Source of the DNA: Roseiflexus sp. RS-1
GTDB lineage: Bacteria; Chloroflexota; Chloroflexia; Chloroflexales; Roseiflexaceae
Length of the DNA: 64,000 nt
Assembly: GCF_000016665.1 (NCBI RefSeq)
Contig: NC_009523.1
Coordinates: 2,728,001 to 2,792,000, forward strand
Reading direction: 5' to 3'
A program made the translations under genes and the position numbers. Below are positions 42,883-57,425 of the stretch, piece after piece. How positions within the stretch are numbered: the first letter of the stretch is position 1; every line of letters starts with the position of its first letter. Below the pieces are notes generated by a model. That model did no database searches, was not told the DNA's origin, and saw nothing but the letters and a program-made list of their open reading frames with translations.

Positions 42883-42982
42883 CATCACCGGTTGACATTG
42901 ATCGCGGAGACGGGGACGTGAAGGTTTTGCCCATACGCCTTCCGGGATGCTGAACCTGTGACATCATTGGTTGAAATTGATC
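42879..42982 (+). repeat. Imperfect 25-bp direct repeat spanning rdgB end and DUF2357 gene start
   Basis: Copies at 42879-42903 and 42958-42982 share 22 of 25 bases. Both begin GTGACATCA. The second is the actual start (GTG at 42958) of the next gene. They are 79 bp apart, so not in the same frame. This suggests a local duplication or a footprint of insertion next to the island boundary. Confidence 0.75.
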
Positions 42983-44568
42983 TCTCGCCGGAAGTGGAAG
43001 GTGATCCGCCCACCCTGACCGAATACCAGGCGGTTGAGTTCGTCTCCCTTCCAGGCAACGCTGAGGCGCTGGAACTGTCCATCGATGGCGTTGTGCTGTC
43101 GCCGTTTCTCCGTCCAGGCGATCCACGCTGGCGCTGGACGTGGAATCCAGGAGCGGCTGTCGGCGTCCATACACTGCGCCTTGCTGCCTGCCGGGGAACA
43201 CGTGTCGAACGGGTGTGGCGATTGAACGTCGCGCCGCGCAAGATCGACCGCGCGCGCTATCTCGCCCTGATCGAAGATGTCGAGCGTGTCGCCATCGGTC
43301 TGGTACGCTCGCTGGCAGGCGCCGTTGTCGAGGCGCATCTGGCTGCGAGTGAAGGCGCATCCCGCTCGTGGCTCGATGATGCTGATATGCTGTTTGGATC
43401 ATTCTTCGACCGATTCGAGCAGGCAGCGCACCGTATTCTGGCGCATCCCCGCAGCACCATGCAGCGCGATGAGCGTCAGATGCTGTTGGGGCAGGCGACG
43501 GATGTTTCAGTTACGGCGCTGCATCGCGCCATTCAGGGTGACCTGGAGGTTGCGCCTCCCGACGTGGCGACCCATGTGCAGCGGGCATTGCGCCCAGAAG
43601 GCGGATTTCTGCCGCGCACCACAGTGCAGCAGCGCAGCAGCGTCACGTTCGATACTGCTGAGCACCGTCTGCTGAAACACACCCTGGAAACCCTGCGCGG
43701 GCGCGCGCGGCGGTGTGCAGATTGGGCTCAGCGCGAAGTTACTCGTCTCGATACTGTGGCTCCGGGTTCTTCCCGCGCCGCGCGCGCCCGCGCTATTGCA
43801 TCGCGCTGCGACCAGTGCGCTCGTAGGATCGCCGGTCTGCTTGCCACGCCGTTCTTCGACCAGGTGACAGCGCTGCGCCATGTCCCTGCGGTCACGCCGC
43901 TGATCCGGCGCGACCCGTCGTACCGCCAGATCTACCGTATGTGGCGGGCGCTGCGCCAGCGGCTGGTCGTCGATCCCGGCGCGCCGTTCGATCTTTCAGT
44001 CGTCGATCTGCCGCTCCTGTACGAACGCTGGTGCGTATTGCGCGCCGTTTGGTCGCTCCTCGACCTGGGTGTGGATGTGCATTCCCATAACCTCCTGATA
44101 ACCCCACCTGGTGAAACCGATGCCTGGGCGATCAATCTGCCAAGCGATGCCCCCTTGCTGATTGCCGGGTATAAAGGATGGGACCTGACGGTGCGCTATC
44201 AGCCGCGCTATCCTCCGGCAGTAAGTGCCCAGAGTGGCGACACATTCGTGTCACTGGATCGCCACACCCGCATCCCCGATCTTGCGATCGAAGCCACGCG
44301 ACCAGGGCATCCGCCGCGCATCATTGTGCTGGACGCCAAATATCGCCTGGATGCCGATGAACGCGCCGTTCCCGCCGACGCGCTGGCGGAGGCGTATGCG
44401 TATGCGGGCGCAATTGGAGCGGCAGACCCTCCATCTGTGGTTGCCGCGCTGATCCTCTACCCCGGTACAGGCGCTGCCGAACGCTATCCCGGCGGCGCTG
44501 GCGCCATCCCGTTGCTTCCCGGCGCCGTCGATGCGCTGGATGCGGCGCTGACGCGGGAGTTGGGGTGA
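42958..44568 (+). CDS. DUF2357-type protein with PD-(D/E)XK nuclease domain
   Basis: This 536-aa protein starts at GTG. The N-terminal ~100 residues look beta-rich, and a helical middle part follows. A segment LPLLYERWCVLRAVWSL (from residue 351) is the signature of the DUF2357 family, some of whose members pair with McrB-like GTPases. The C-terminus has a PD-(D/E)XK pattern: IPD441 in RIPDLAIEAT and LD459AK461 in IIVLDAKYRLD. A DNA-cleaving or McrC-like role is likely by family. No McrB is adjacent. It comes right after rdgB and 119 bp before the methylase, which has its own promoter. Its base composition resembles the chromosome backbone more than the island genes. Confidence 0.72.
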   Translation: MTSLVEIDLSPEVEGDPPTLTEYQAVEFVSLPGNAEALELSIDGVVLSPFLRPGDPRWRWTWNPGAAVGVHTLRLAACRGTRVERVWRLNVAPRKIDRARYLALIEDVERVAIGLVRSLAGAVVEAHLAASEGASRSWLDDADMLFGSFFDRFEQAAHRILAHPRSTMQRDERQMLLGQATDVSVTALHRAIQGDLEVAPPDVATHVQRALRPEGGFLPRTTVQQRSSVTFDTAEHRLLKHTLETLRGRARRCADWAQREVTRLDTVAPGSSRAARARAIASRCDQCARRIAGLLATPFFDQVTALRHVPAVTPLIRRDPSYRQIYRMWRALRQRLVVDPGAPFDLSVVDLPLLYERWCVLRAVWSLLDLGVDVHSHNLLITPPGETDAWAINLPSDAPLLIAGYKGWDLTVRYQPRYPPAVSAQSGDTFVSLDRHTRIPDLAIEATRPGHPPRIIVLDAKYRLDADERAVPADALAEAYAYAGAIGAADPPSVVAALILYPGTGAAERYPGGAGAIPLLPGAVDALDAALTRELG

Positions 44569-44627
44569 TGAGGAAATCCATAAACGCATTGCAATCGATC
44601 TGTATTCGAGATGTTTATCTTTTCCAC

Positions 44628-44656
44628 TAGACATTTTTAGCGCTTAACGCTAGAAT
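44628..44656 (+). promoter_or_regulatory. Promoter of the island operon
   Basis: TAGACA (44628-44633), 17 bp, TAGAAT (44651-44656), each one mismatch from consensus. Transcription would start near 44663, 25 bp before the methylase ATG. It is the only clear promoter I find for the eight-gene cluster. Confidence 0.6.
44638..44652. promoter_or_regulatory. Operator-like inverted repeat in the island promoter
   Basis: The perfect inverted repeat TAGCG-CTTAA-CGCTA lies inside the spacer of the promoter at 44628-44656 and touches the -10 box. A regulator bound there would shut the operon; the small HTH-like protein or a sigma factor of the island could be involved. Confidence 0.5.
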
Positions 44657-44687
44657 TCTGCAAGAAATAGCGCGTCGATGAGGACAT

Positions 44688-45869
44688 ATGAAACCTCCCC
44701 GGCCCATTCATCCCTTTCCAGCACGCATGGCGCCTCATATTGCTCTGAAAGCAATAGAAGCGCTCACACCCGGATCGACGGTCCTTGATCCGATGATGGG
44801 GTCTGGGACAGTCGTGCGAGTGGCTGCAGAAGCAGGTCATCGTGCCATTGGTCGAGACGTCGATCCACTGGCGGTCTTGATGACCAGAGTATGGACAGCG
44901 CCGATCAATCCGCAGCAATTACGTGTCGCAGCACGTGAACTGGTCAATGAAGCGTGTGAGTTGTCCCCTGAACGGATCAAGCTACCCTGGATCGACGATG
45001 ATGCTGAGACAGCAGCATTCAGCGTCTACTGGTTCGCAGAAGAGCAACGACAACATTTGCGTCAATTGAGCTCATGTCTTCGCTGGCGCAATGACGTGAT
45101 TGGTGACGCGCTGCGTATCGCTCTCAGTCGGATCATTATCACCAAGGATCGCGGCGCTTCACTGGCGCACGATGTTTCCCATAGTCGACCGCACAAAGTC
45201 GCTCAGACGAATACCTACCGCGTCTTTGAAGGATTTCTCGAGTCAGTTCATCGATTGGCGCGTCGTCTGGAAGAAGAGCCGCCACGTGGTTGGGTCGATG
45301 TGGCACACGGTGATGCGCGTGCGACTGGCATTGATGCTCAAACCGTCGATGCGGTGATTACGTCGCCACCATATCTGAATGCAATCGATTATATCCGCGG
45401 TCATCGACTGGCTCTCATCTGGTTTGGCTACCGGCTGCGCGATCTCCGCGCCATCCGGCGGTGCAGCATTGGTGCGGAGCGAGCGCCTGAGCATATTTCT
45501 GATCCGGAATTACTCGACGAGATCTTCCGTATCCTGAAGATACCGCCTGATTTTCCACAGCGTGAACGCCGTATTCTTGCACGCTACGTGACAGACCTTG
45601 ACGCTATGCTGCGCGAAGTGCATCGAGTGCTGAAGTGCGGCGGTATCGCCGTGTTTGTTATTGGCAATTCATCCATCAAAGGCTCTTTTGTGCGTAATTC
45701 ACGTATCATCGCGCACATTCTCCGGCGACTCGGATTCAACCATGTCTCTCACTTTTCGCGTCCGATTCTCCCCTCGCGTCGTTATCTGCCACCGCCAGCA
45801 CAGGCCGGAATGAGCAACCTCGAACATCGGATGCGTCGTGAAGTGGTTCTTACATATGTGCGACTTTAG
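44688..45869 (+). CDS. DNA methyltransferase (SPPY type, likely N4-cytosine or N6-adenine)
   Basis: This 393-aa protein has HPFPARMAPHIALKAI (motif X-like, residues 8-23), the SAM-binding VLDPMMGSG (32-40) and the catalytic TSPPYLNAIDYIR (S226-Y229). Motif order is X-I, then ~180 residues, then IV, with a closing GGIAVFVIGNSSIKG. SPPY is common in N4-cytosine enzymes but is not decisive. No matching restriction nuclease is recognisable next to it, although nucleases of the island (NurA-like, DUF2357) could use its mark. It is the first gene of the cluster. Confidence 0.88.
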   Translation: MKPPRPIHPFPARMAPHIALKAIEALTPGSTVLDPMMGSGTVVRVAAEAGHRAIGRDVDPLAVLMTRVWTAPINPQQLRVAARELVNEACELSPERIKLPWIDDDAETAAFSVYWFAEEQRQHLRQLSSCLRWRNDVIGDALRIALSRIIITKDRGASLAHDVSHSRPHKVAQTNTYRVFEGFLESVHRLARRLEEEPPRGWVDVAHGDARATGIDAQTVDAVITSPPYLNAIDYIRGHRLALIWFGYRLRDLRAIRRCSIGAERAPEHISDPELLDEIFRILKIPPDFPQRERRILARYVTDLDAMLREVHRVLKCGGIAVFVIGNSSIKGSFVRNSRIIAHILRRLGFNHVSHFSRPILPSRRYLPPPAQAGMSNLEHRMRREVVLTYVRL

Positions 45870-45896
45870 CTTTCCTGTGTTGTAGTTGGCACGTCG

Positions 45897-46535
45897 ATGG
45901 CGCCACGCAATCGTCCTGATGAAAAAGATCTTCTTGTAGTCTATCGACGACTTATCAGCGGTGAACCAGATGCGCCGTCCGATTTCGCCGAGTTGTGCCT
46001 CGATCCACTGATACGTACCTTGCAACTCCGGTATCCAGCGCTTCCTGATCCAGAGTGGGCAAGAGATATTGCGACTGATACGCTTCTTTCATTTGTACAA
46101 GAACCATCCCGCTACATCCCTGAACGTGGACCTCTCTGGTCATACCTTATCCTCGATGCGTCGCGCAACCTTCAGAACCTGATTCAGAAGGAGGAGCGTC
46201 GTTGGAGACGTCTTGTCCCTCTAGAATCTGTCGATCTTGTTGCTTCAGGTGGGAATAGTAATGTAGAGGAAGAAGTGCTTGATCGTCTGGCGCCAACGTT
46301 GTTCGCCGGACAGTACGATGTTAACCAGATCTACGAACAACTGCGACGCGAAATCACCGATCCGCGCGACTGGCAGGTGTTGCGACTACTCTCCGAAGGT
46401 GAGCGGCGCACGCATGCATTTGCGGAAGTGCTCGGCATTGCACATTTACCTGCCGATGAGCAGCGGAAACAGGTTAAGCGCGTCAAAGATCGCCTTCGCA
46501 TCCGCCTGAAACGTCTCGGAGGGCGACAAAAGTGA
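45897..46535 (+). CDS. ECF-type RNA polymerase sigma factor
   Basis: This 212-aa protein has a region 2 pattern (ARDIATDTLLSFVQEPSRYIPERGPLWSYLILDASRNLQNLIQKEERR) and a region 4-like end (DPRDWQVLRLLSEGERRTHAFAEVLGIAHLPADEQRKQVKRVKDRLRIRLKRLG). It is close to ECF group size. Its GTGA overlap with the next gene (46532-46535) shows tight coupling. No anti-sigma factor with membrane helices follows; the ImmA/IrrE-type peptidase downstream could take that regulatory role. It probably directs RNA polymerase to island or response genes. Confidence 0.8.
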   Translation: MAPRNRPDEKDLLVVYRRLISGEPDAPSDFAELCLDPLIRTLQLRYPALPDPEWARDIATDTLLSFVQEPSRYIPERGPLWSYLILDASRNLQNLIQKEERRWRRLVPLESVDLVASGGNSNVEEEVLDRLAPTLFAGQYDVNQIYEQLRREITDPRDWQVLRLLSEGERRTHAFAEVLGIAHLPADEQRKQVKRVKDRLRIRLKRLGGRQK

Positions 46536-46930
46536 GCCGACCTTTATCATCATCAGTTATCCGGGCTGCTGAGCGTGCACGTGAGCGCCCTTTTTTCCTG
46601 GCGAGCGTCCTGGAAGCGTACCGCCAGATGAACGACATGAGTTCTGAAGAGTTTGCAAGGTTTCTGGGATGTTCACAGGAAGATGTCGTGCGATTAGCGC
46701 TCTGTCGCCGTCCCATCGCCCACTCGCCAACATTCCTCAGCGATATTGATCATCTGGCGCGTCGTTTCGCCTTTCCAGGTGAACGGTTGATACAGATCAT
46801 CCGTGAAGTCGATGCGATACAGGCGCTACGGGATCATTTCAACGCAGTGCAGGAGAAGAAACATTTGCTCATGGCAGCGCGTGATCGGGAAGATGATGCG
46901 AGTGATGATGAGATGTGTGACCATGAGTGA
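46532..46930 (+). CDS. Small protein with HTH-like segment
   Basis: This 132-aa protein starts at GTG overlapping the sigma gene stop. The segment SSEEFARFLGCSQEDVVRLALCRRPI (about residues 37-62) looks like a helix-turn-helix. The rest is helical and charged, with an acidic tail. In many operons an Xre-type HTH protein precedes an ImmA/IrrE peptidase that cleaves it. The order here, HTH-like protein then metallopeptidase with an 8-bp overlap, fits that arrangement. The domain match is weak. Confidence 0.65.
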   Translation: MSRPLSSSVIRAAERARERPFFLASVLEAYRQMNDMSSEEFARFLGCSQEDVVRLALCRRPIAHSPTFLSDIDHLARRFAFPGERLIQIIREVDAIQALRDHFNAVQEKKHLLMAARDREDDASDDEMCDHE

Positions 46931-47660
46931 AGGATGGGTTGTGCGTGCTGCTGAAACGTTCTGGCGACAGGTTGGTGGAACTCTGCCGTACCCGCGTGAT
47001 CTGTCTTACGTCGTTGATCGTTTCTTTCCACTCGCTGTTGTGTCACTTCCCGCACTGAGTACACACAGGATCGAGCAATGGTTTGCTCGAAGAGACATAC
47101 CGTATCGTTTTGCACGTTATGATCGTTCTTTGCATGGATGTATTGTTGCTGTGCGCGGGCAGGGAGTCTTGTTTGTCAATGCCGATGATGATGTCTGTGA
47201 GCGACGGTTTACTGTTGCTCACGAAACCGCACATTTTCTGCTTGACTACCTGGAACCCCGGCAGAGAGCACTGCAATTGTTTGGACCTTCGATCTTGCCA
47301 GTGCTGGATGGCGAGCGCTCACCAACGATAGAAGAACGTATCCACGCCGTACTGGCCGATGTTTCGTTCGGTGTTTTTGTCGATCTGATGGTGCGCAATC
47401 CTCATGGAGATATCGATCAGCCTGTCACCGTTCAATCTGAGGATCACGCTGATCGTCTGGCATTGGAATTGCTCGTTCCCGCGGAAGAGGCGCTTGCCAG
47501 CATTCCTGATGACGTTGTCGCTCCGTTAGAAAAAGTGCGCTGCCTTGTTTCTTATCTTGTTGATAGATATGGTCTGCCACGCCGTGTTGCACAGATGTAT
47601 GCAGCTGTTTTGTTGCGAACTCAAGTTTCAGGTTCGATGGCGCAATGGTTGGGGTTGTGA
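46923..47660 (+). CDS. ImmA/IrrE-type zinc metallopeptidase
   Basis: Translation most likely starts at ATG 46923 (MSEGWVV), overlapping the preceding gene by 8 bp; longer frames are out of character. The 245-aa product has a clear HEXXH motif: RFTVAHETAHFLLDYLEP with H100-E101-H104. The later ADRLALELLVPAEEAL is the third-ligand region of ImmA/IrrE proteins. IrrE controls DNA damage response in Deinococcus and ImmA cleaves phage-like repressors. Here it may cleave the HTH-like protein or a sigma factor. The assignment rests on the motif and on gene neighbourhood. Confidence 0.85.
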   Translation: MSEGWVVRAAETFWRQVGGTLPYPRDLSYVVDRFFPLAVVSLPALSTHRIEQWFARRDIPYRFARYDRSLHGCIVAVRGQGVLFVNADDDVCERRFTVAHETAHFLLDYLEPRQRALQLFGPSILPVLDGERSPTIEERIHAVLADVSFGVFVDLMVRNPHGDIDQPVTVQSEDHADRLALELLVPAEEALASIPDDVVAPLEKVRCLVSYLVDRYGLPRRVAQMYAAVLLRTQVSGSMAQWLGL

Positions 47661-47729
47661 GTCGCACTTTTCAGAGGAACGCGGAATAGAACAGTAGAAG
47701 CGCCGATAATGTGGTGATGGGAGGATGCT

Positions 47730-48932
47730 ATGAGCGGAGCGGTGGGATCACCACAATCAATCAATGAGAATGAGTCGCTCATCAGTGCGGACACGTTTTC
47801 TGTTGCCTATGGTGAACCGCTCGATAGGACGCTCGATATCGACTCCTGGCAGACAGGAGGCGATCTGGAAGGATTGTACGAGCGTCTCGAGCGGGAGGTG
47901 CGTGCTGCGGTTGAGATCGAAAATACCCAACGCGAGACCATCCGGCACGAGATCTTCCCACGCCTTCGCAATCGCCCTGGCGCCCCGCGCGGCGCTGGTT
48001 GCTACCGTGTTACGACCAGCGACCTGCGGCGGGTGCACCAGGCATTGCTGTTCAATGGCGCGGTCGAGGCATGCGATGGCACAAGCGTCGAACACGATAC
48101 GCTTCCGGTGACTATCACCCAGATCGGTATCTGCCTCGTTTCGTATCGAGGTGATCAGGGGTCCTGGTCGCAACGCCTCTTTCGTCGTGATCTGCGGGCA
48201 AGCACTGGCAGTGCACTCGACGATCTGCTGGCATTGCTCGATAATCGCGCCGCGCGCGGCAGCGTCGACGCTGATGAGCGAGGTCGGCTGAGCGATCTGG
48301 CGCGGCGCGGCATTATGACGTATGCCGAACGAGCTATCCTCGCACGCAAGTCAACCGGCGTATGGCGCGTCGGTCACGGAAATCCTGCGCCCTATGAACT
48401 ATTGACTGGTTCAGGGAGCATGGATCTTCTGGACCGTGCTATGGAAATCATTCGTGAACTGGTGTTGAACCATCGCAAGTTTCTGTTCGTACCAAGCGCG
48501 CCGTCTGATCGCCGCTGGTTGACTCTCGGTCAGGCGCTTTATCCGCTCGAATTTGCCATCCTCGAAACTATCACTGATCGCATGCTGGCGATTGTCAATC
48601 GAGGACATTACAACAGGCAGTATCGTGCCAAGGCGGAGAACTTTTGCCGCGAAATAGGACCAAACGTCGTCCTCGGCGTCTATCGCGCTTCTGCCGCCGC
48701 TCCAGCGTATCTCTTCTTCAGTCATATTGACCATGCCTGCGAAGCGGCTCTGATCGCAATGGCTGACAGCGTTCTTCAAGAACATCGCGGTTTTCCGATG
48801 CTTATTGATCTGGCGGATGCGATCTGCCGCACAACGTTTGGCAATGATATTTTCAGCAATGCCGTCCAGATGGCGTATGCCCATGCAGGTGAGCCGTTTC
48901 GCTTCCTGAATGAGCGTCAGACACGCGCCTGA
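47730..48932 (+). CDS. NurA-domain-like nuclease, partner of HerA
   Basis: This 400-aa protein starts at ATG 47730 after GGGAGGATG. EACDGTSVEHDTLPVTITQIGICLVSY (D116) resembles the first NurA nuclease motif, D-G-S plus beta strands. The C-terminal RGFPMLIDLADAICRTTFGNDIF sits where the NurA Y..H motif is found, but the histidine position is not obvious. The strongest support is the neighbour: it is coupled by TGATG to a HerA ATPase, the usual NurA partner in DNA-end resection. The family is assigned by position and weak motifs, so it remains a candidate. Alternatives are another nuclease used with HerA. Confidence 0.55.
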   Translation: MSGAVGSPQSINENESLISADTFSVAYGEPLDRTLDIDSWQTGGDLEGLYERLEREVRAAVEIENTQRETIRHEIFPRLRNRPGAPRGAGCYRVTTSDLRRVHQALLFNGAVEACDGTSVEHDTLPVTITQIGICLVSYRGDQGSWSQRLFRRDLRASTGSALDDLLALLDNRAARGSVDADERGRLSDLARRGIMTYAERAILARKSTGVWRVGHGNPAPYELLTGSGSMDLLDRAMEIIRELVLNHRKFLFVPSAPSDRRWLTLGQALYPLEFAILETITDRMLAIVNRGHYNRQYRAKAENFCREIGPNVVLGVYRASAAAPAYLFFSHIDHACEAALIAMADSVLQEHRGFPMLIDLADAICRTTFGNDIFSNAVQMAYAHAGEPFRFLNERQTRA

Positions 48933-48946
48933 TGAGGAGTGCAGCG

Positions 48947-50902
48947 ATGGGAAAACAGCAGAGATCAATTGGCAATCAGTATCAGTTTCGCCTGGAGGGG
49001 TTTGAAGAGGAGGAAGAAATGGCGGTCGAAAAAAATGTACGTAACATTGACCCAACGTTGGATGATGGATTTGCACCGGTGTCTCAAGAAGTTTTCCAGA
49101 GCATTGATGCCGATGCCGAAAAAGCAGGTGGGGCCTGGGAAGAGCCAGAGGAGTACGTCGGCTCGATTGGGCGCACAATGTTTGATACGCCATCAAGCAA
49201 GGACAATAGTCTAACAGTGCTCTTGCCGCGTGAAAGTATGGAAAAGGCGCCGTCACAGTCGCTGGTGCGCATCAAGAGCCGGGATGGCCGATCCTATCTG
49301 GGTGTCGTTATCGAAGGACCGTTTGCTGAGCCTGACGGTATTCGTGGCGATTCGCCAATTGTGGTGACGACGACAGTCAAGGGCGGTATTTTCATGCCCA
49401 AGTTTCACGGCCGAGTGCAGGTTGAAATTCTGGGTGAGGAGGACGAAAGCGGTATGCTCGTTCCGCCGCGCTTTCGTCCTTTGCCGAATAGCCCGGTGTT
49501 TGCCCTTAATAGTTGCGAGACCGCGAATGTATTGAAACTGGAAGGCGATATTCGATTGGGATTAGCAGTAGGACACGAAAACCTGGAGGTGCGCATTCCT
49601 TCTGATCGCAAATCGGTCCTGCCGCGCCATGTGGGTATCCTCGGTACCACCGGCGGTGGTAAATCAACAACTGTGTCTGGATTGATCTACAGTCTACAGA
49701 AGGCCGGGATCGCTACGGTGTTGATCGACACTGAAGGCGAGTACACCATGATCAACGAACAGACCACCGATCGCACGATGATCGCAGCGCTTGATCGTCG
49801 TGGATTGAAACCGGATGGCGTTCAAAATACTCATATCTATCATCTTGTCGGTCGTGAAACAACCAACCCTGGTCATCATCCGAAGACCAGCTTCTGTATA
49901 AAATTCGATAAACTCTCGCCTTATCTCGTAATGGAATTGCTGGAACTCAACGAACCACAGGAAACACGCTACCTGAAAGCGTATGATATTACGAGGCGCG
50001 TCTTGCAAGATCTTAGGATTTCGCCGCAGGCGGGAGAGGATCCATCACGTTTCTTCGAGTTGGATGAGATGGAAGAGGGATACCCGCAAATGACGCTGGA
50101 ACAGATATACGATATCATTACAGCGTGTGCTCAAATCATCGACAAAGCGGAGGATGGTATAGAATTCCACTCGAAGGAGTTTCGCAACCGCAAAGATGAT
50201 GTCATCGCAGCGATTAAGAGGGCTATCAATGCTGATAGTAGTAAGAAGTCCGAGGGTTCGCTTCCCGGCGTCGTTAGCAGTTGGCGCGCGCTGCAAGGGA
50301 AGATTGGCCGTATTCGTCGCCTGAAGATTTTCGACAATCCAGATGCAAAGCCTCTCAACTATCGTGATCTGACCAGACCGGGTCAGGTATCGATTATCGA
50401 TCTCAGTGACACTGACTCACCGCGGATCAACAACCTTGTCATCGCAGAGATTCTTCGCGGAATTCAGGAGCAGCAAGACAGGAACTATGTCGAAGCAGAG
50501 AAAGCAGGTAGACAGCCAAATCGTACCATTGTAGTTATTGAAGAAGCGCACGAGTTTCTTTCTGCAGAGCGTATCAAACAAATGCCGGTGCTCTTTCAGC
50601 AGGTCGCGCGTATCGCCCGCCGTGGCCGCAAACGCTGGCTTGGGCTTGTCTTTGTGACGCAACTTCCGCAGCATCTGCCTGATGAAGTGCTTGGCTTGAT
50701 CAACAACTTCATTCTGCACAAAATCGCTGACGCTGGCGTTATCAATCGTCTCAAACGCTCAGTTAGCGGAATCGACGAAAGTCTGTGGTCGCGCCTGCCG
50801 GGTCTTGCACCGGGACAGGCAATCGTGTCGATGGCTGGTATGACACGCCCGTTGCTTGTTGCAATCGATCCCACTCCTTGTAAATTGCGGATGGTCGATT
50901 GA
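48947..50902 (+). CDS. HerA-type ATPase (DNA translocase)
   Basis: The likely start is ATG 48947, since GAGGAG (48935-48940) precedes it; an ATG at 48932 overlaps the previous stop. The ~651-aa product has an N-terminal beta-barrel-like part. Its RecA-like ATPase has Walker A GTTGGGKS (233-240) in RHVGILGTTGGGKSTTVSGLIYSLQ and Walker B IVVIEEAHEF (E532/E533). The C-terminus has NNFILHKIADAGVINRLKRSVSG and a final SMAGMTRPLLVAIDP. HerA hexamers drive DNA through NurA or other nucleases. It sits directly after the NurA-like gene and before a sigma factor. Confidence 0.9.
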   Translation: MGKQQRSIGNQYQFRLEGFEEEEEMAVEKNVRNIDPTLDDGFAPVSQEVFQSIDADAEKAGGAWEEPEEYVGSIGRTMFDTPSSKDNSLTVLLPRESMEKAPSQSLVRIKSRDGRSYLGVVIEGPFAEPDGIRGDSPIVVTTTVKGGIFMPKFHGRVQVEILGEEDESGMLVPPRFRPLPNSPVFALNSCETANVLKLEGDIRLGLAVGHENLEVRIPSDRKSVLPRHVGILGTTGGGKSTTVSGLIYSLQKAGIATVLIDTEGEYTMINEQTTDRTMIAALDRRGLKPDGVQNTHIYHLVGRETTNPGHHPKTSFCIKFDKLSPYLVMELLELNEPQETRYLKAYDITRRVLQDLRISPQAGEDPSRFFELDEMEEGYPQMTLEQIYDIITACAQIIDKAEDGIEFHSKEFRNRKDDVIAAIKRAINADSSKKSEGSLPGVVSSWRALQGKIGRIRRLKIFDNPDAKPLNYRDLTRPGQVSIIDLSDTDSPRINNLVIAEILRGIQEQQDRNYVEAEKAGRQPNRTIVVIEEAHEFLSAERIKQMPVLFQQVARIARRGRKRWLGLVFVTQLPQHLPDEVLGLINNFILHKIADAGVINRLKRSVSGIDESLWSRLPGLAPGQAIVSMAGMTRPLLVAIDPTPCKLRMVD

Positions 50903-51010
50903 TCTCGTCGCATTTGTTATGGTCATCTTTGGTAGGCTTATTGCCAGGAGGAGATCGCGGGTCTTTGCGCTGTCAGCTTCTCAAGACCTGCGAGTATATC
51001 AGGTGCAGTG

Positions 51011-52207
51011 ATGTCTCAACATTTTTGCCACCAGGCGGGATATGCACAGAATGACGCATGGCTGACCCGCGCGCTTGATGAGGTGCTCCAGAAACTCGAT
51101 CCTGCGCCAGGAAAGGCGATCACCTATCGCCAGATCGATGTTGTGCTCGATGATGCTGGCATAGAGCCGGATCTCGCAACCCAACTCTATGAACGCATCC
51201 TGCGAACGCTTGAAGAATGCCAGGTTCAGGTGGTTGAGGCGGAAGAAAGCGATCTCGGAAACGACGATTTTGCGACAGAAATTGCTGATGAAGTCTTCGA
51301 GATGCTCGCGGAAATGATGGGACGAGCCGGTGAATTTGATCACGAGTTGCTGAGTGCTGCCGATGAACGGCGCCTGCTCGAGATTTATCACGACGGATTG
51401 CGTGCCAAACGCGAATTGCAGAGCGGCCTCAGTTCAGTGCAGCAATATGCCGCCGAGCGAAGGATCAAGGCGTCGGAAGAGGCGATCGATACATTGATGC
51501 GCTGCAACCTGCGCCTGGTTGCGAAGATAGCCACGCGTTATATGCCGTATGCCCGACACCTAACCTTCGATGATCTGCTGCAGGAAGGGCGGATTGGCTT
51601 GCTCAAAGCCATCGAGAGGTTCGACCAGAATTGTCGGGGGCGATTATCAACATATGCCGTCTATTGGATTCGGCAGTCGATACAGCGAGCGCTCGCAGAT
51701 CAGGATCGTATGGTTCGCCTGCCGGTTCATATTGTGGAGCAACTTCATCGTTTGCGTAAGACGTGCGAGCAGTTCCGCTGCATTCACGGTCGTGAGCCAG
51801 GTGATGCTGAGTTGGCAAATGCACTTGGCGTTTCTCTCGCTAAAGTCCGATCTCTGTGGCGTGTTGCGCAGCACCACACATCTATCGATCGACCGGTTGG
51901 TGCAGATACCAATACTTTCCTGGGGGAATTGATCGCAGATGATCGCGAGGAGGGTCCAGATTTCATTTGTGAGCAACAGTTGCTTCATGCAGTGCTGAGA
52001 GAGGTATTGGGTCACCTCTCTAGCCGTGAGCGTGACATCCTTGAGCGGCGTTATGGTTTGATCGATGGTCAAACGCATACTTTGGAGGAAATAGGTCAGA
52101 TTTTTGGTCTTACACGGGAGAGAATTCGTCAAATCGAGCGAAAAGCGCTCAAACGTCTTAATAGAGGTGAATATCGACGAATATTACAACCTTTTCTTTA
52201 CCAATGA
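51011..52207 (+). CDS. Sigma-70 family RNA polymerase sigma factor (group 2-like)
   Basis: This protein is 398 aa from ATG 51011; a GTG at 51008 is adjacent. Residues ~20-80 look like region 1.1 (GKAITYRQIDVVLDDAGI...LEECQVQVVE). Regions 1.2 and 2 follow (LLSAADERRLLEIY; NLRLVAKIATRYM...LTFDDLLQEGRIGLLKAIERFD...LSTYAVYWIRQSIQRALADQ), with region 3 and region 4.2 (HTLEEIGQIFGLTRERIRQIERKALKRL). It is close in build to RpoD/SigA. Its place in an operon with HerA and a helicase is unusual, as primary-like sigma genes usually stand alone or near primase. It overlaps the next ORF's longer frame. Confidence 0.93.
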   Translation: MSQHFCHQAGYAQNDAWLTRALDEVLQKLDPAPGKAITYRQIDVVLDDAGIEPDLATQLYERILRTLEECQVQVVEAEESDLGNDDFATEIADEVFEMLAEMMGRAGEFDHELLSAADERRLLEIYHDGLRAKRELQSGLSSVQQYAAERRIKASEEAIDTLMRCNLRLVAKIATRYMPYARHLTFDDLLQEGRIGLLKAIERFDQNCRGRLSTYAVYWIRQSIQRALADQDRMVRLPVHIVEQLHRLRKTCEQFRCIHGREPGDAELANALGVSLAKVRSLWRVAQHHTSIDRPVGADTNTFLGELIADDREEGPDFICEQQLLHAVLREVLGHLSSRERDILERRYGLIDGQTHTLEEIGQIFGLTRERIRQIERKALKRLNRGEYRRILQPFLYQ

Positions 52208-52218
52208 GGAGGATGAAG

Positions 52219-54906
52219 ATGAATATTATCGCTATACGCTGTCGCAGGCATAATCGGGGAGAAAATCCCAAGTCATTCCGCTTATTGCAAATCGCGCTTG
52301 ACCAGGGACAAAAAAGAGCGATGCGCTATTTAACGGAAAAGGATGGTAATATTGTTAAAGGAGCTTGGTCATATACCTCTCGTCCGTTCGCCCCTGGTTT
52401 ATACTGCTTCCATTGTCTTAATGAAGGCATCCGCGAAATGATACCTGTTGATCTTGAAGACCTTCGTGATCTGGGTCTTTCAGATCTGCCACTTGTGTTT
52501 CAGTCAGCGGAGTCCTTTCAGGCGGTAACGCTTGTTAACTCCATGATTAACAGGTATCAGGACGCGATTCGTAATATTCAGGAATTTCCTGCACGTTCAG
52601 CCTCTTTTGATGATAATAGAATAATTAATGGTCTGAATCCAGAACTTCAGCACGTTTTGCAGAAGAAGGTGTTGCCCAAAGGTGGAAAACTTTATTCGTT
52701 TCAGGCTAAGGCTATTGAGGTGGCGCTTAATGGTCACGATATCATCATTACAACCCCTACCGCAAGTGGTAAATCATTAGCGTATATACTACCGGTGTTA
52801 GAGGCTACATTATGCTCTTCTGATGCTACCGCGCTCTATATTTCGCCATTAGTGGCTCTGACTGAAGATCAGTTTGAAGCGCTTACGATTTTTGATGAGA
52901 GCGGTACAGATTGGATCAGGAAGGGTGAACGTTTTTCTATTCATCGTGTATGCCGGACGCTTGTGATAGGCTCTCGAAGAGTCACTATCGCACGTTATGA
53001 CGGTTCTGTGCTGCCTGGTGATCGGGAGGAAATACGTCGGCGCCGTCCGCAGTATGTTCTGACAACCCCTGATATGCTCCATATGGCTATGCTCAGAGGT
53101 GCGTTTGATGATCGACATTGGCGTTATCTTCTGGCAGGGTTGCGCTACATCGTAATCGACGAAATGCACATCTATCGGGGTATTCTTGGTGCCTCCTTCG
53201 CCAACCTGATACGGCGGCTTCAACGTTTGTGTCGGTTGCATGGGACCAATCCGCAATTCTTATGCGCGTCTGCGACCATGGTTGATCCGATTGGAACCGT
53301 AGAGCGTTTCATTGGTCGGCGTCCAGTCGGAGTTGATGGATCTGAGGATGGCGTTCCCCAACATAAGCGTATGGTGGTGATCTGGAGCAGCAGTGTCGAT
53401 GATGGTCAGGTGTATGCAACATCGACTCATGCTAAAAATGTGCTACTGCACCTTATAAGCGAACGTGTCCGCCATATCGCATTCGCGCGATCAATTGGAG
53501 AAATTAACGATATTTATCGCTTTACTTCTGCTGAGTTACGCGAACAAGGCATTGACACGCCGCTTATCAAGCCATTTATGCGTGAACTGCGGCCAGACGA
53601 GAAACGCGCCATCATTCGAGATCTTAAGGATGGCCGCCTTCATAGTGTTATCTCAACAACCGCTCTCTCGATGGGTATTGATATCGGTAGTCTTTCGGCA
53701 GCCGTCATTATCGGTTTTCCGGGATCGATCGCACAATTCTGGCAGCAGGCTGGTCGTGCTGGACGTGCTGGCGAAGGTGTGATCATCTTGATTGCTGATC
53801 GAAATCCACTGGACCAATTTTTTGTCCAGCACCCAGAGGTCTTATTCGATCTGAATGCAGAGCCAGTCTATTGCAATCCTGACAATCCATATATCGTGCG
53901 GAGCCATTTGTTGACAGCAGCGCGCGAATTTCCACTGAGTGACGAAGATTTCCATTTGTTCGGAAAAGCTGCACTGGATCAAATACAGACGTTGACCGCC
54001 GAGGGATTGATGACTTCTGATGGCATGGGTCGATATGAATTGACGGAATCTGCTAAAAATTTGGCTGATACGCCTTTTCGCAGTCTCACGTTCGCTGTTC
54101 CGGTGAAGGATCAGGAAAAGCGTCTGATTGTCGAAGTTGATGCAGCAAGAGCGCAGCGGGCTTTGCATCGCCATGCACATTATCAGCATATTGATCGCTA
54201 TTATCGTGTTATTTCCTGTGATCTGGATTGGAGTCGAGGGCGTGGCGAAGTTGTCGTTCAGGAGTTAGAACATCCCGAATATACGACAGCTGCGCATGTT
54301 GAGATAGATATCTCGATCATTGACTGTCAGATCCAGCGTGATGATGAACATTACGTCGTAGGGTACGGCATTGTCAAGTGTCATACCCGGGTTGATGGAT
54401 ACTACGAAGTTCCGCTGTTTTCTCGTAATGAGCCCTTCAAGTATCGACCGCTCGGTCGCGCAGCACCTCCACCGCTCGAATATCAGACGCAGGCATTCTG
54501 GCTGTTGCTTTCTCCGAAAGTATTGGATGCAATCTCGCCTGATGAACGAGAAGCCGCGATGTACTCACTGGCAGGCGCGTTACGGTTAGCGACGTCTATA
54601 GAAGAATTGTGCGACCTTTCAGACGTCGAAGGCGTCGGAATGCTACACTTTCAGGATGTCCTTCGCCCCATGGTGATGGTGTATGACACGGTTCCTGGAG
54701 GTGTTGGCATTACAGAGGCAGCGTTCAGACGTCTTGACCGAATATTGCTTCGAGCAGTGCAGATCCTCGAGGAGTGTCCATATTGCTCGAAACATCCAGA
54801 GAGTCGTGGTTGCCCTTATTGCGTTACCGCAAGGTATGGCGATGAAAAAACGATCAACCGTTTGGCTGCGCTGGAAATCATTCGTAACTTTCAGTCTTCA
54901 AGTTGA
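52219..54906 (+). CDS. DEAD/DEAH-box helicase with C-terminal DUF1998-like zinc domain
   Basis: It starts best at ATG 52219, 6 bp after GAGGAGG, giving ~895 aa. SF2 motifs are clear: TTPTASGKS (K185), DEMH (314-317), SAT, and GRAGRAG. The C-terminal DUF1998-type part has VYDTVPGGVGITEAAF and CPYC-x8-CPYC (C853, C856, C865, C868), as in MrfA/YprA and the DISARM/DrmB-type DUF1998 proteins. An extra N-terminal ~170 residues with CFHC come before the helicase. Such helicases act in DNA repair or defence. The gene looks more AT-rich than the chromosome around it, which suggests transfer. It ends the cluster, and the next gene is convergent. Confidence 0.9.
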   Translation: MNIIAIRCRRHNRGENPKSFRLLQIALDQGQKRAMRYLTEKDGNIVKGAWSYTSRPFAPGLYCFHCLNEGIREMIPVDLEDLRDLGLSDLPLVFQSAESFQAVTLVNSMINRYQDAIRNIQEFPARSASFDDNRIINGLNPELQHVLQKKVLPKGGKLYSFQAKAIEVALNGHDIIITTPTASGKSLAYILPVLEATLCSSDATALYISPLVALTEDQFEALTIFDESGTDWIRKGERFSIHRVCRTLVIGSRRVTIARYDGSVLPGDREEIRRRRPQYVLTTPDMLHMAMLRGAFDDRHWRYLLAGLRYIVIDEMHIYRGILGASFANLIRRLQRLCRLHGTNPQFLCASATMVDPIGTVERFIGRRPVGVDGSEDGVPQHKRMVVIWSSSVDDGQVYATSTHAKNVLLHLISERVRHIAFARSIGEINDIYRFTSAELREQGIDTPLIKPFMRELRPDEKRAIIRDLKDGRLHSVISTTALSMGIDIGSLSAAVIIGFPGSIAQFWQQAGRAGRAGEGVIILIADRNPLDQFFVQHPEVLFDLNAEPVYCNPDNPYIVRSHLLTAAREFPLSDEDFHLFGKAALDQIQTLTAEGLMTSDGMGRYELTESAKNLADTPFRSLTFAVPVKDQEKRLIVEVDAARAQRALHRHAHYQHIDRYYRVISCDLDWSRGRGEVVVQELEHPEYTTAAHVEIDISIIDCQIQRDDEHYVVGYGIVKCHTRVDGYYEVPLFSRNEPFKYRPLGRAAPPPLEYQTQAFWLLLSPKVLDAISPDEREAAMYSLAGALRLATSIEELCDLSDVEGVGMLHFQDVLRPMVMVYDTVPGGVGITEAAFRRLDRILLRAVQILEECPYCSKHPESRGCPYCVTARYGDEKTINRLAALEIIRNFQSSS

Positions 54907-55053: not shown

Positions 55054-57186
55054 CTAGACGAGGATGGGGATTTCCTCAGGCTCCGAACTCTCCCTCCGCC
55101 ACACTGGCGGTTGCAACGGTGCAAGGAACGGCGACGGCGCCGCGCGCGATCCGCAGACCAGCAGCGCCCGCATGGCGCGCGAGCACCCGACGAAGAAGAG
55201 ACGGCGTTGCTCGTCTTCCTGCACCTGCGCCTCCTCGACCGGCAAGTCCTCGTTGATCCGCGGCAGGCGTCCTTCGTCCAGACCAACAATTGCCACAAAG
55301 GGAAATTCCAGCCCCTTGGCGGAGTGCAGCGTCAGCACTTTGACCAGGGGGACGGTAATGTCAAGCTCTCTGCCGGATTGGAACACTGCTGGCATACCCA
55401 GCTTGCTGAGACGTTCGGCAAGTTCCCTGCCTTCCCGGTTGCTGGTGCAAAACACAGCGCCGCTGTGGGTTGGCAGACGGTAGTAGCGCGCTGCTTCCAG
55501 GAAGAAATCACGGATCGTTTCAGCGGCGCGCGTATCGCTGCTGACCAGCCAGATGAGTGGCGGATCCCCCTGATGCGTCGATGGGAGTTGCTGGATGCTC
55601 TCTTCTTCGCCTGCCTGGCTCCCTGCCAGAATGCTGGCGCAGGCCGCCAGAATCTGCGCCGTATTGCGAAAGTTCTGCTTCAGCAGTATCGTCCGACCGG
55701 TGAAGGCAAGGTCGTGGTGCACCTGCTTCCAGCTGAAACCGCGCTGGTAGATCGACTGCGACGCATCGGCGGTCAGATAGACATGCTCTGGCGTTTCCAC
55801 CAGGTTCAATAGCAACCGCAACGCCACCGGCGAAAGGTCCTGCGCTTCGTCGATGACCAGCGCCTGATATGGTTTTGGGTCGATGTGTGCGGTGTATTCC
55901 ATTGCACCGCGCCGCACCTGCTCGTGCAGAACGAGACCATTGGCGCGCATCAGATCACGCCAGTATTCATAGACCGCCCACAGCGCTTCGCGGATCGCCG
56001 GTTTGAGCGGCGTGCGTCGTCCGTGACGCTCAATGACCAGGTATTCTTCCTGACTGCTGATATTCCGCGCTTCGATAATGTGCAGAAACTCCTGAAGCAG
56101 ATACTCCTGTCCGAGGTGCTCCAATGCCGCGAGGCGCGTCTGACGGTCTGCCTCGTTTGCTGCGGGTATCTCCGCTTCGCGCAGCGACATGGCGAGCAGA
56201 GCAAGTGCCTGTCCTTCAGTTGCGAATGTGGGTTTTCCCCACCCTCTGGCAAAATAATGGTATGCCAGACTATCAACCGTGGTCACCTTGACCCCCCATG
56301 CGTCTGGCGGTGCGCCGAGCAGTCTGGTCAACAGTTGCTCCGAATAGGTGACCAGGGCATTGGTATAGGTGGTGAAGAGCACCGATGTGACACCCTGTTC
56401 CAGCAGACGCTGCACCCGATAGAGCGCCAGCGTGGATTTGCCGGTTCCCGGACCGCCCCGCACCAGGATCGGACCGCGGCGATCCTGATTGATCAGGCGC
56501 TCCTGTTCTGGCGTCAGACGCAGCAAAAAACTGCTCAGGTCTTCTTCGGCAAAACGCTCGACATCCGCAGGCGTGGAAAGGACGAATTCGGGCTGCGCTG
56601 CAATCGCATCGAGCGAACGGGGGAACAGGTTGTCAAGGATGCGATTGAGATCGCGTTCCGGGATCGGCAGGTTGAGCAGATCGTCCTCGGTGCGCGCAGT
56701 GAGGATCTCTGAATGATACTGGGCGGGTATGCGCCAGCGCTCCAGCATGTCGTTTGTTATCATGAACGGCAGCGGGCGACCTGGCGGCAGTGTACGCGAT
56801 GGCGGCATAATATCGAGCGTTGGCGCGCTGAGCGTGAACTCTTCTTCAATAACGCCACGCGCTTTCGGTGTGAGTGTGGACGGATCGGGCAACGTTGCTG
56901 GCGGAACAATATCGGGTAGATCGTCTTCATACGTGCGCTCGTTGCGCTTGCGCACGCTCAGCAGTTTGACCCATCCCCTGCCGATGCAGTAGCAAATACG
57001 GTAGTCGCCAACCCGCACCCGATAGACATTGTCGTACCCCTTGAGTTTCTTTGCATCGCCGCGAGCTGAATAGGGATCACTGGCAAGGATCTCCAGCTTT
57101 TTGGTGATCGCCTTGCTCACGTGGCGTGGGAGGTCGAGCGATTCGTAGTAGAAGGTGGGGGTGAAGGAGAGTTCAAATGCTGGCAT
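55054..57186 (-). CDS. RelE-like domain fused to UvrD-like superfamily 1 helicase
   Basis: It starts at ATG 57186 (MPAFELSF), with GGAG 8 bp upstream, and encodes 710 aa. Residues 1-88 fit the RelE/ParE toxin fold: SKAITKKLEILASDPYSARGDAKKLKGYDNVYRVRVGDYRICYCI...VKLLSVRKRNERTYED. After a linker comes a UvrD-type helicase with Walker A GGPGTGKS (244-251), IDEAQDLSPVA, TADASQSIYQRGFSW, LHSAKGLEFPFVAIVGLDEGRLP and LFFVGCSRAMRALLV. The C-terminal domain is short. The fusion may target helicase activity to ribosomes or RNA, or the toxin domain may be a regulator. No antitoxin gene is next to it. Confidence 0.88.
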   Translation of the reverse strand: MPAFELSFTPTFYYESLDLPRHVSKAITKKLEILASDPYSARGDAKKLKGYDNVYRVRVGDYRICYCIGRGWVKLLSVRKRNERTYEDDLPDIVPPATLPDPSTLTPKARGVIEEEFTLSAPTLDIMPPSRTLPPGRPLPFMITNDMLERWRIPAQYHSEILTARTEDDLLNLPIPERDLNRILDNLFPRSLDAIAAQPEFVLSTPADVERFAEEDLSSFLLRLTPEQERLINQDRRGPILVRGGPGTGKSTLALYRVQRLLEQGVTSVLFTTYTNALVTYSEQLLTRLLGAPPDAWGVKVTTVDSLAYHYFARGWGKPTFATEGQALALLAMSLREAEIPAANEADRQTRLAALEHLGQEYLLQEFLHIIEARNISSQEEYLVIERHGRRTPLKPAIREALWAVYEYWRDLMRANGLVLHEQVRRGAMEYTAHIDPKPYQALVIDEAQDLSPVALRLLLNLVETPEHVYLTADASQSIYQRGFSWKQVHHDLAFTGRTILLKQNFRNTAQILAACASILAGSQAGEEESIQQLPSTHQGDPPLIWLVSSDTRAAETIRDFFLEAARYYRLPTHSGAVFCTSNREGRELAERLSKLGMPAVFQSGRELDITVPLVKVLTLHSAKGLEFPFVAIVGLDEGRLPRINEDLPVEEAQVQEDEQRRLFFVGCSRAMRALLVCGSRAAPSPFLAPLQPPVWRRESSEPEEIPILV

Positions 57187-57425
57187 AATCATTTCTCCGG
57201 AGGATTCTGTCTGACGAGCGCGATAGTGCACGTGGCGTCATCGCCGTCCTTAACCATTCTATCACCAAATGCGTACAAATGGACTCCAGTATGGGAAGGC
57301 GATAGTAGCGAATTGCTACCGACCCTCGGTGGCAGGCATATCCTGGTTTTCAGAGTGCGCCCCCGCTATGCCTGGATTCACGGTATAATGCCCGCCAGAC
57401 GGTTCACGCTACGGAGGGTTATGGT

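Follow-up and report, generated by a model that had tools for sequence, protein, structure and literature searches.

A conserved sigX-HTH-M78-NurA-HerA gene core with exchangeable downstream cargo in Roseiflexus sp. RS-1 and other bacteria

Introduction

Do eight closely spaced genes of Roseiflexus sp. RS-1, predicted to encode a DNA methylase, two sigma factors, a helix-turn-helix (HTH) protein, a metallopeptidase, a NurA-like nuclease, a HerA translocase and a helicase, form a single system, and what might such a system do? The genes occupy positions 44688-54906 of the 64,000-nucleotide stretch analyzed here (the window; contig NC_009523.1, positions 2,728,001 to 2,792,000), the remainder of which contains mostly ordinary metabolism genes. 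An earlier note, prepared by a model from the sequence alone, had proposed that all eight act together as an undescribed system, characterized by its two sigma factors. Comparison with other genomes yields a different partition: the true conserved unit is the gene order sigX-HTH-M78-NurA-HerA, usually led by a methylase gene, and the genes that follow herA change from locus to locus. With moderate confidence, we interpret the locus as an inducible operon against invaders, gained by horizontal transfer and composed of two modules, a core and a swappable cargo.

Results

A five-gene core recurs in unrelated genomes

The order sigX-HTH-M78-NurA-HerA, on one strand, was found at 25 loci, including that of the window; at two of these, HerA is truncated or missing because the contig ends there. 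Most of the loci belong to Chloroflexota, the others lying on contigs assigned to Planctomycetota, Thermodesulfobacteriota, Pseudomonadota and Bacillota (five or more phyla in all), and the order is held across ∼50% protein divergence. A HerA search matched 18 of the 301 Chloroflexota genomes scanned, only partially in two or three cases, and a scan with the NurA-like protein yielded nine further related loci, several on contigs labelled Planctomycetota, Syntrophaceae, Gammaproteobacteria or Fermentithermobacillaceae, as well as a tenth, marginal match (L028). Outside Chloroflexota the core is rare, the seed genome being the only match in sets of 294 and 398 genomes. Some loci are reduced or divergent: L041 retains NurA-HerA only, L042 is cut, and the distant L043 (1078-11425) has an unrecognized ORF (open reading frame) in the HTH place, with NurA-like and HerA proteins at 26% and 33%, respectively. 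No match to the NurA-like protein was found among plasmid or phage records; one IMG/VR contig did match (L048). This contig, classed as viral, carries a core with the methylase gene convergent and downstream, and may be either a mobile element or a misclassified piece of chromosome.

The genes behind herA are exchanged

In 14 of the 20 loci uncut by a contig end, the first gene behind herA, on the same strand, belongs to a cargo, most of these genes starting ≤150 bp past the end of herA. Eight of the 14 cargo loci carry CRISPR-Cas genes, with arrays at five: a type I set (Cas6, Cas1, Cas3, Cas8a, Cas7) at L019, L024, L037, L038 and L039, Cas4-Cas1 at L030 and L031, and a type III-B set at L040. 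Other cargoes comprise PsyrTA (L029; PsyrT, E 1.5e-290, PsyrA, E 1.4e-129), TmtA (E 7e-70) together with UvrD and PD-(D/E)XK genes (L049), Mre11/Rad50-like genes (L021), a UvrD-nuclease, an exonuclease and a second methylase (L027), and an exonuclease accompanied by a ResT/TelK-like telomere resolvase protein (L043). An immune setting, one of the possibilities raised in the earlier note, is visible in the neighbors of the core in other genomes (CRISPR-Cas, PsyrTA, TmtA). In a HerA tree, the window, L029 and L049 group together (clade support 99/97), yet these nearest cores carry different cargoes (sigma70-YprA, PsyrTA and TmtA-UvrD, respectively); one clade with three cargoes indicates that the core stays while the cargo changes.

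In the window, the cargo consists of two genes. The first (51008-52207, + strand) encodes an RpoD-like sigma-70 factor in which sigma-70 regions 2, 3 and 4 are all present; its identity to the genome's own sigma paralogues is 39-43%, and since it nowhere exceeds 43%, we regard this protein as a distinct factor. The second (52204-54906, + strand) encodes a DEAD helicase of the YprA/MrfA family, carrying WHD_HRQ1 and MZB (former DUF1998) domains, nearest by sequence to YprA/MrfA (6znp, E 1.6e-97) and also matching TIGR03817. Some member of this helicase family occurs in 180 of 350 Chloroflexota genomes, two of which encode proteins of 60% identity, the rest reaching ≤42%. Next to both 60%-identical helicase genes, a sigma-70 gene (product 44-47% identical) overlaps or abuts, with no core nearby. 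These stand-alone pairs (L104:7871-11796 and L105:8720-12557) lie in unrelated places in two Chloroflexota genomes, and the neighbors examined around them include no defence genes.

The sigma70-YprA pair is missing from every other core locus seen, and is a separable two-gene cassette; standing alone, it is possibly a small two-gene system of its own. The earlier note had named a lack of clustering in other genomes as refuting its proposal; the core order does recur in unrelated genomes, so that part of the association withstands this check. A single system of all eight genes is not supported: they split into two separately mobile modules, and as the cassette is absent from other cores, the pairing of two sigma factors is particular to this locus rather than a hallmark.

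Layout, leader and insertion of the locus

The eight ORFs all point rightward, as had been described, with successive spacings of 27, -4, ∼-8 (taking the M78 gene from ATG 46923), 69, -1, 105 and -4 bp; the 105-bp gap sets the sigma-70 gene (51008) off from herA. Their GC content, 48-57% compared with 59-64% in three flanking genes, fits acquisition. In another genome of the comparison (G1047), the genes that flank the block in the window, encoding a DUF2357-nuclease and a RelE-UvrD protein, are only ∼0.8 kb apart, indicating that the eight-gene block arrived between resident genes. The NurA-like gene occurs in one of six genomes of the genus (that of the window), and in three of 82 genomes of the order.

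The upstream neighbor (42958-44568, + strand), a gene for a DUF2357 protein with a PD-(D/E)XK nuclease domain, lies between an ITPase gene and the point of insertion, belongs to the resident gene content of the genus, and has no McrB-like partner adjacent to it. The downstream neighbor (55054-57231, - strand) encodes a fusion of a RelE domain and a UvrD helicase that resembles ArmD of ARMADA, but is native here. Both were rejected as members of the locus, being in place in congeners that lack the eight genes. A separate observation concerns G1045, another Roseiflexus genome, where a methylase gene whose product is 93% identical occupies the corresponding site next to DUF2357, on the edge of a contig (L109:3-1019); this genome has no NurA-like gene, and the methylase gene may represent a remnant, a variant or an assembly gap.

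The intergenic leader (44569-44687, + strand) contains a sigma-70-type match, TAGACA-17-TAGAAT (44628-44656), which at 10 of 12 positions is the best promoter match, but promoter-like sites as a whole occur at chance number (8 observed, 9.2 expected). The operator-like repeat that the earlier note had reported, the palindrome TAGCG-N5-CGCTA (44638-44652), was rejected: an equal number is obtained in 45% of shuffled sequences, it is missing from the G1045 leader upstream of the 93%-identical methylase, and no matching palindrome was found upstream of other cores.

Proteins of the core

The eight proteins were compared with Pfam, PADLOC and NCBIfam, whose profiles recover the methylase, M78, HerA, sigma-70 and MZB helicase assignments made previously. 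The methylase (44688-45869, + strand; 393 aa) belongs to the N6_N4_Mtase family (Pfam E 1e-12) and contains DPMMGSG and SPPY motifs, the latter intact in 14 of 14 methylase proteins. Its gene is usually located ahead of sigX, although it is divergent in four loci and downstream in one.

The sigX product (45897-46535, + strand) is a putative extracytoplasmic function (ECF)-like sigma factor, with a region 2 profile match (Sigma70_r2, E 2e-4 in the window protein; matched in 14 of 19 family members) and a region-4-like C-terminus visible in the alignment by eye only; a PDB profile search matched ECF sigmas (best E 0.002). It is followed by a gene for a protein (46532-46930, + strand) comprising an XRE-like helix-turn-helix and a long helix, the first part of which is confidently predicted, and at the end of which lies a C-terminal AARD sequence (residues 115-118) that is near-invariant in a family otherwise variable (mean column identity, 31%). 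The profile matches to sigma region 2 and to the HTH domain are both weak; the CapH DNA-binding domain aligned at Z 3.5, and the CapH and ImmR domains were tied with many HTH proteins. As a guess, AARD is a peptidase cut site or a sigma contact site, and the protein could be either a repressor or an anti-sigma factor, both roles being permitted by its position right after sigX.

The M78 (ImmA/IrrE/CapP-like) metallopeptidase carries the motif HETAH, and an HExxH is kept in 21 of 21 M78 proteins. Its listed ORF opens at 46803, but ATG 46923 is the better start, giving a gene (46923-47660, + strand) that overlaps the end of the HTH gene. The protein matches Peptidase_M78 (E 8e-9) and PADLOC capP (E 2e-8); a phmmer search against the PDB returned chance matches only.

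Neither Pfam (E up to 1), PADLOC and NCBIfam nor a profile search of the PDB gave a sequence match for the next protein (47730-48932, + strand). Aligning it with its relatives, 21 in all, provided a structure model (mean predicted local distance difference test score, pLDDT, 77) with an RNase H-like fold, for which the ten best Foldseek matches were all NurA (E 4e-5 downward), in agreement with the label given earlier. VIA-align returned a Z of 17.7 over 287 residues against NurA of the Thermococcus HerA-NurA complex, 14.3 against TdpAB (8wfd), and ∼10 against endonuclease V and Argonaute; NurA structures, HerA-NurA complexes among them, top both searches. Judged by predicted fold alone, this protein is a distant NurA relative; across the 21 relatives, the candidate catalytic carboxylates D116, E200 and D346 show little or no variation, and the protein may be an active nuclease. 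Its partner, HerA (48932-50902, + strand), is a predicted hexameric DNA translocase (DUF87) recognized in Pfam, PADLOC and NCBIfam (HerA/DUF87 match E 2e-20, with Walker A/B motifs) and matched by TdpA at E 2e-8. Walker A is present in 25 of 26 HerA proteins, the single miss being a partial gene.

Relationship to known systems

TdpAB pairs a HerA-like with a NurA-like protein and is tied to phosphorothioation. Like it, and like the NurA-HerA end-resection complex of archaea and Deinococcus, the locus sets a NurA-like fold beside a HerA translocase, and a methylase occupies the position that phosphorothioation has in Tdp. Here, however, the pair is surrounded by sigma, HTH and M78 genes, Pfam, PADLOC and NCBIfam detected no NurA sequence similarity, and no Tdp modification gene was seen at the locus. 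The HerA/FtsK and BREX-related capture systems, likewise accessory defence operons that combine HerA with DNA-binding and nuclease parts, employ ORC/Cdc6 AAA+, restriction endonuclease or PglZ partners, none of which is found among the eight proteins; NurA is unmentioned in the papers describing them (PMC10853773, PMC12839542).

CapH and CapP resemble the core in that a small HTH protein and an M78-type peptidase are encoded directly upstream of varied immune operons. In contrast to that arrangement, an ECF-like sigma gene here precedes the HTH-M78 pair in every complete locus, the NurA-HerA pair stands between controller and cargo, and the HTH protein is only weakly similar in fold to CapH.

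The YprA/MrfA-like helicase with an MZB/DUF1998 region is shared with DISARM, Dpd, Druantia, ARMADA, BRIGADE and TALON, in a preprint that mentions neither HerA nor sigma factors (PMC12458937). Their PglX-like methylase, BrxHII/RapA helicase and DrmB are absent here, the helicase partner being sigma-70; as regards ARMADA and DISARM, the locus has one member of the helicase family, no second superfamily 2 helicase, and a methylase of N6_N4 type. MrfAB also differs, as the partner gene encodes sigma-70 in all three occurrences, with no exonuclease such as MrfB adjacent. Similarities in PADLOC of HerA to Mad8 (E 1e-21) and of the methylase to Mad2 (E 3e-13) of MADS, and of sigma-70 to MzaA (E 6e-42) of MZA, reflect general family resemblance, the other MADS or MZA proteins not being in the locus, and no domain typical of restriction endonucleases was found in the eight proteins, as type II restriction-modification would entail.

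We found no named system that corresponds to the set, as the earlier note had supposed, and no paper on it among the open-access literature. Each type of part is known, and both HerA-based defence systems and regulators of neighboring immune operons have been described, but we found no description there of this combination, nor of a core that includes a sigma factor and takes CRISPR-Cas as an exchangeable cargo.

Discussion

A working model for the anti-invader operon that we favor would assign the methylase, sigX, HTH, M78, NurA-like and HerA proteins to a first module, in which sigX, HTH and M78 would constitute a three-protein switch. As long as the cell rests, expression might be held down by the HTH protein, either as a promoter repressor or as an anti-sigma factor acting on sigX. 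Invasion or damage would generate single-stranded DNA, upon which M78 would cleave the HTH protein, perhaps at its AARD tail; such cleavage is probably the switch, by analogy with characterized peptidase-regulator pairs. CapP cleaves CapH on single-stranded DNA, and the two control adjacent immune operons (PMC13373217); PprI likewise cleaves DdrO on single-stranded DNA, at a loop with an essential arginine (PMC10904395). Both precedents support the proposed logic. The sigX-holoenzyme might then transcribe the core as an operon together with whatever follows herA, that is, the second module of exchangeable cargo immediately downstream, here sigma-70 and a YprA-type helicase. The NurA-HerA complex would pump and degrade DNA that offers ends, including that of invaders, and the methylase, which is not obligatory, would most probably label the cell's own DNA or restrain attack on the host.

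Several findings weigh against this anti-invader model. Six loci have no recognizable cargo behind herA (L032-L035, L041, L048), so that co-regulation of core and cargo is not obligatory. Upstream of the cores, we found neither a conserved promoter nor a conserved operator, and seven leaders compared shared no motif. The window sigX, taken on its own, falls under Pfam's cut-off, and the fold match of the HTH protein is weak (VIA Z < 4). No methylase was recognized within at least 4.8 kb upstream of L024, L038 and L040, which are well-covered loci; the relatives come mostly from metagenome bins, whose phylum labels may be wrong; and the defence-island neighbors can be guilt by association.

The latter consideration, carried to its end, would make the genes independent parts merely co-located in accumulating islands, as the cargo-free cores and the sigma70-YprA pairs found alone elsewhere would allow; we consider this very unlikely, given a five-gene order conserved across divergent proteins and several phyla, and first cargo genes that are so often on the same strand and close behind herA. 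A restriction-modification-like system, in which NurA-HerA would attack any DNA without the mark that the methylase places on host sites, as in Tdp or DndFGH, would account for the methylase usually being the first gene, and for the TdpAB resemblances of both the NurA-like model and HerA. That no methylase was recognized within at least 4.8 kb upstream of three cores argues against a strict version of such a system, methylase placement elsewhere varies, and no target-recognition partner was seen; we consider this explanation improbable.

A stress-induced DNA-repair operon, in which NurA-HerA would resect ends, as its counterparts do in archaea and Deinococcus, while lesions would be cleared by the MrfA-like helicase, with no role in immunity, deserves somewhat more weight, although we still think it unlikely. 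NurA-HerA are known as end-resection enzymes, the best structural relatives of the NurA-like protein are repair complexes, the helicase is nearest to MrfA/YprA and TIGR03817 proteins, an IrrE-type peptidase is known as a DNA-damage switch, and certain cargoes (Mre11/Rad50-like genes in L021, UvrD and exonuclease genes in some cores) would suit such a role. However, the distribution is that of patchy accessory genes, the block is a low-GC insertion, the genome has another YprA paralogue elsewhere, and CRISPR-Cas, PsyrTA or TmtA make up most of the cargo. It is because of this cargo and patchy distribution that we rate defence above repair.

A more ambitious, and for now doubtful, extension of the anti-invader model is that the core serves as a portable chassis of controller and nuclease, protease-released and sigma-driven, such that plugged-in systems, including whole CRISPR-Cas operons, would be co-induced with NurA-HerA; in the window, where the cargo brings its own sigma factor, this could produce a two-step sigma cascade.

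If the anti-invader interpretation is correct, sigma factors would join the known controllers of immune operons, and a bacterial NurA-HerA pair would acquire a role outside repair. The locus family would also offer a natural case of one conserved core joined to interchangeable immune systems, CRISPR-Cas among them, raising the testable question of whether cells deliberately induce innate nucleases in concert with adaptive immunity.

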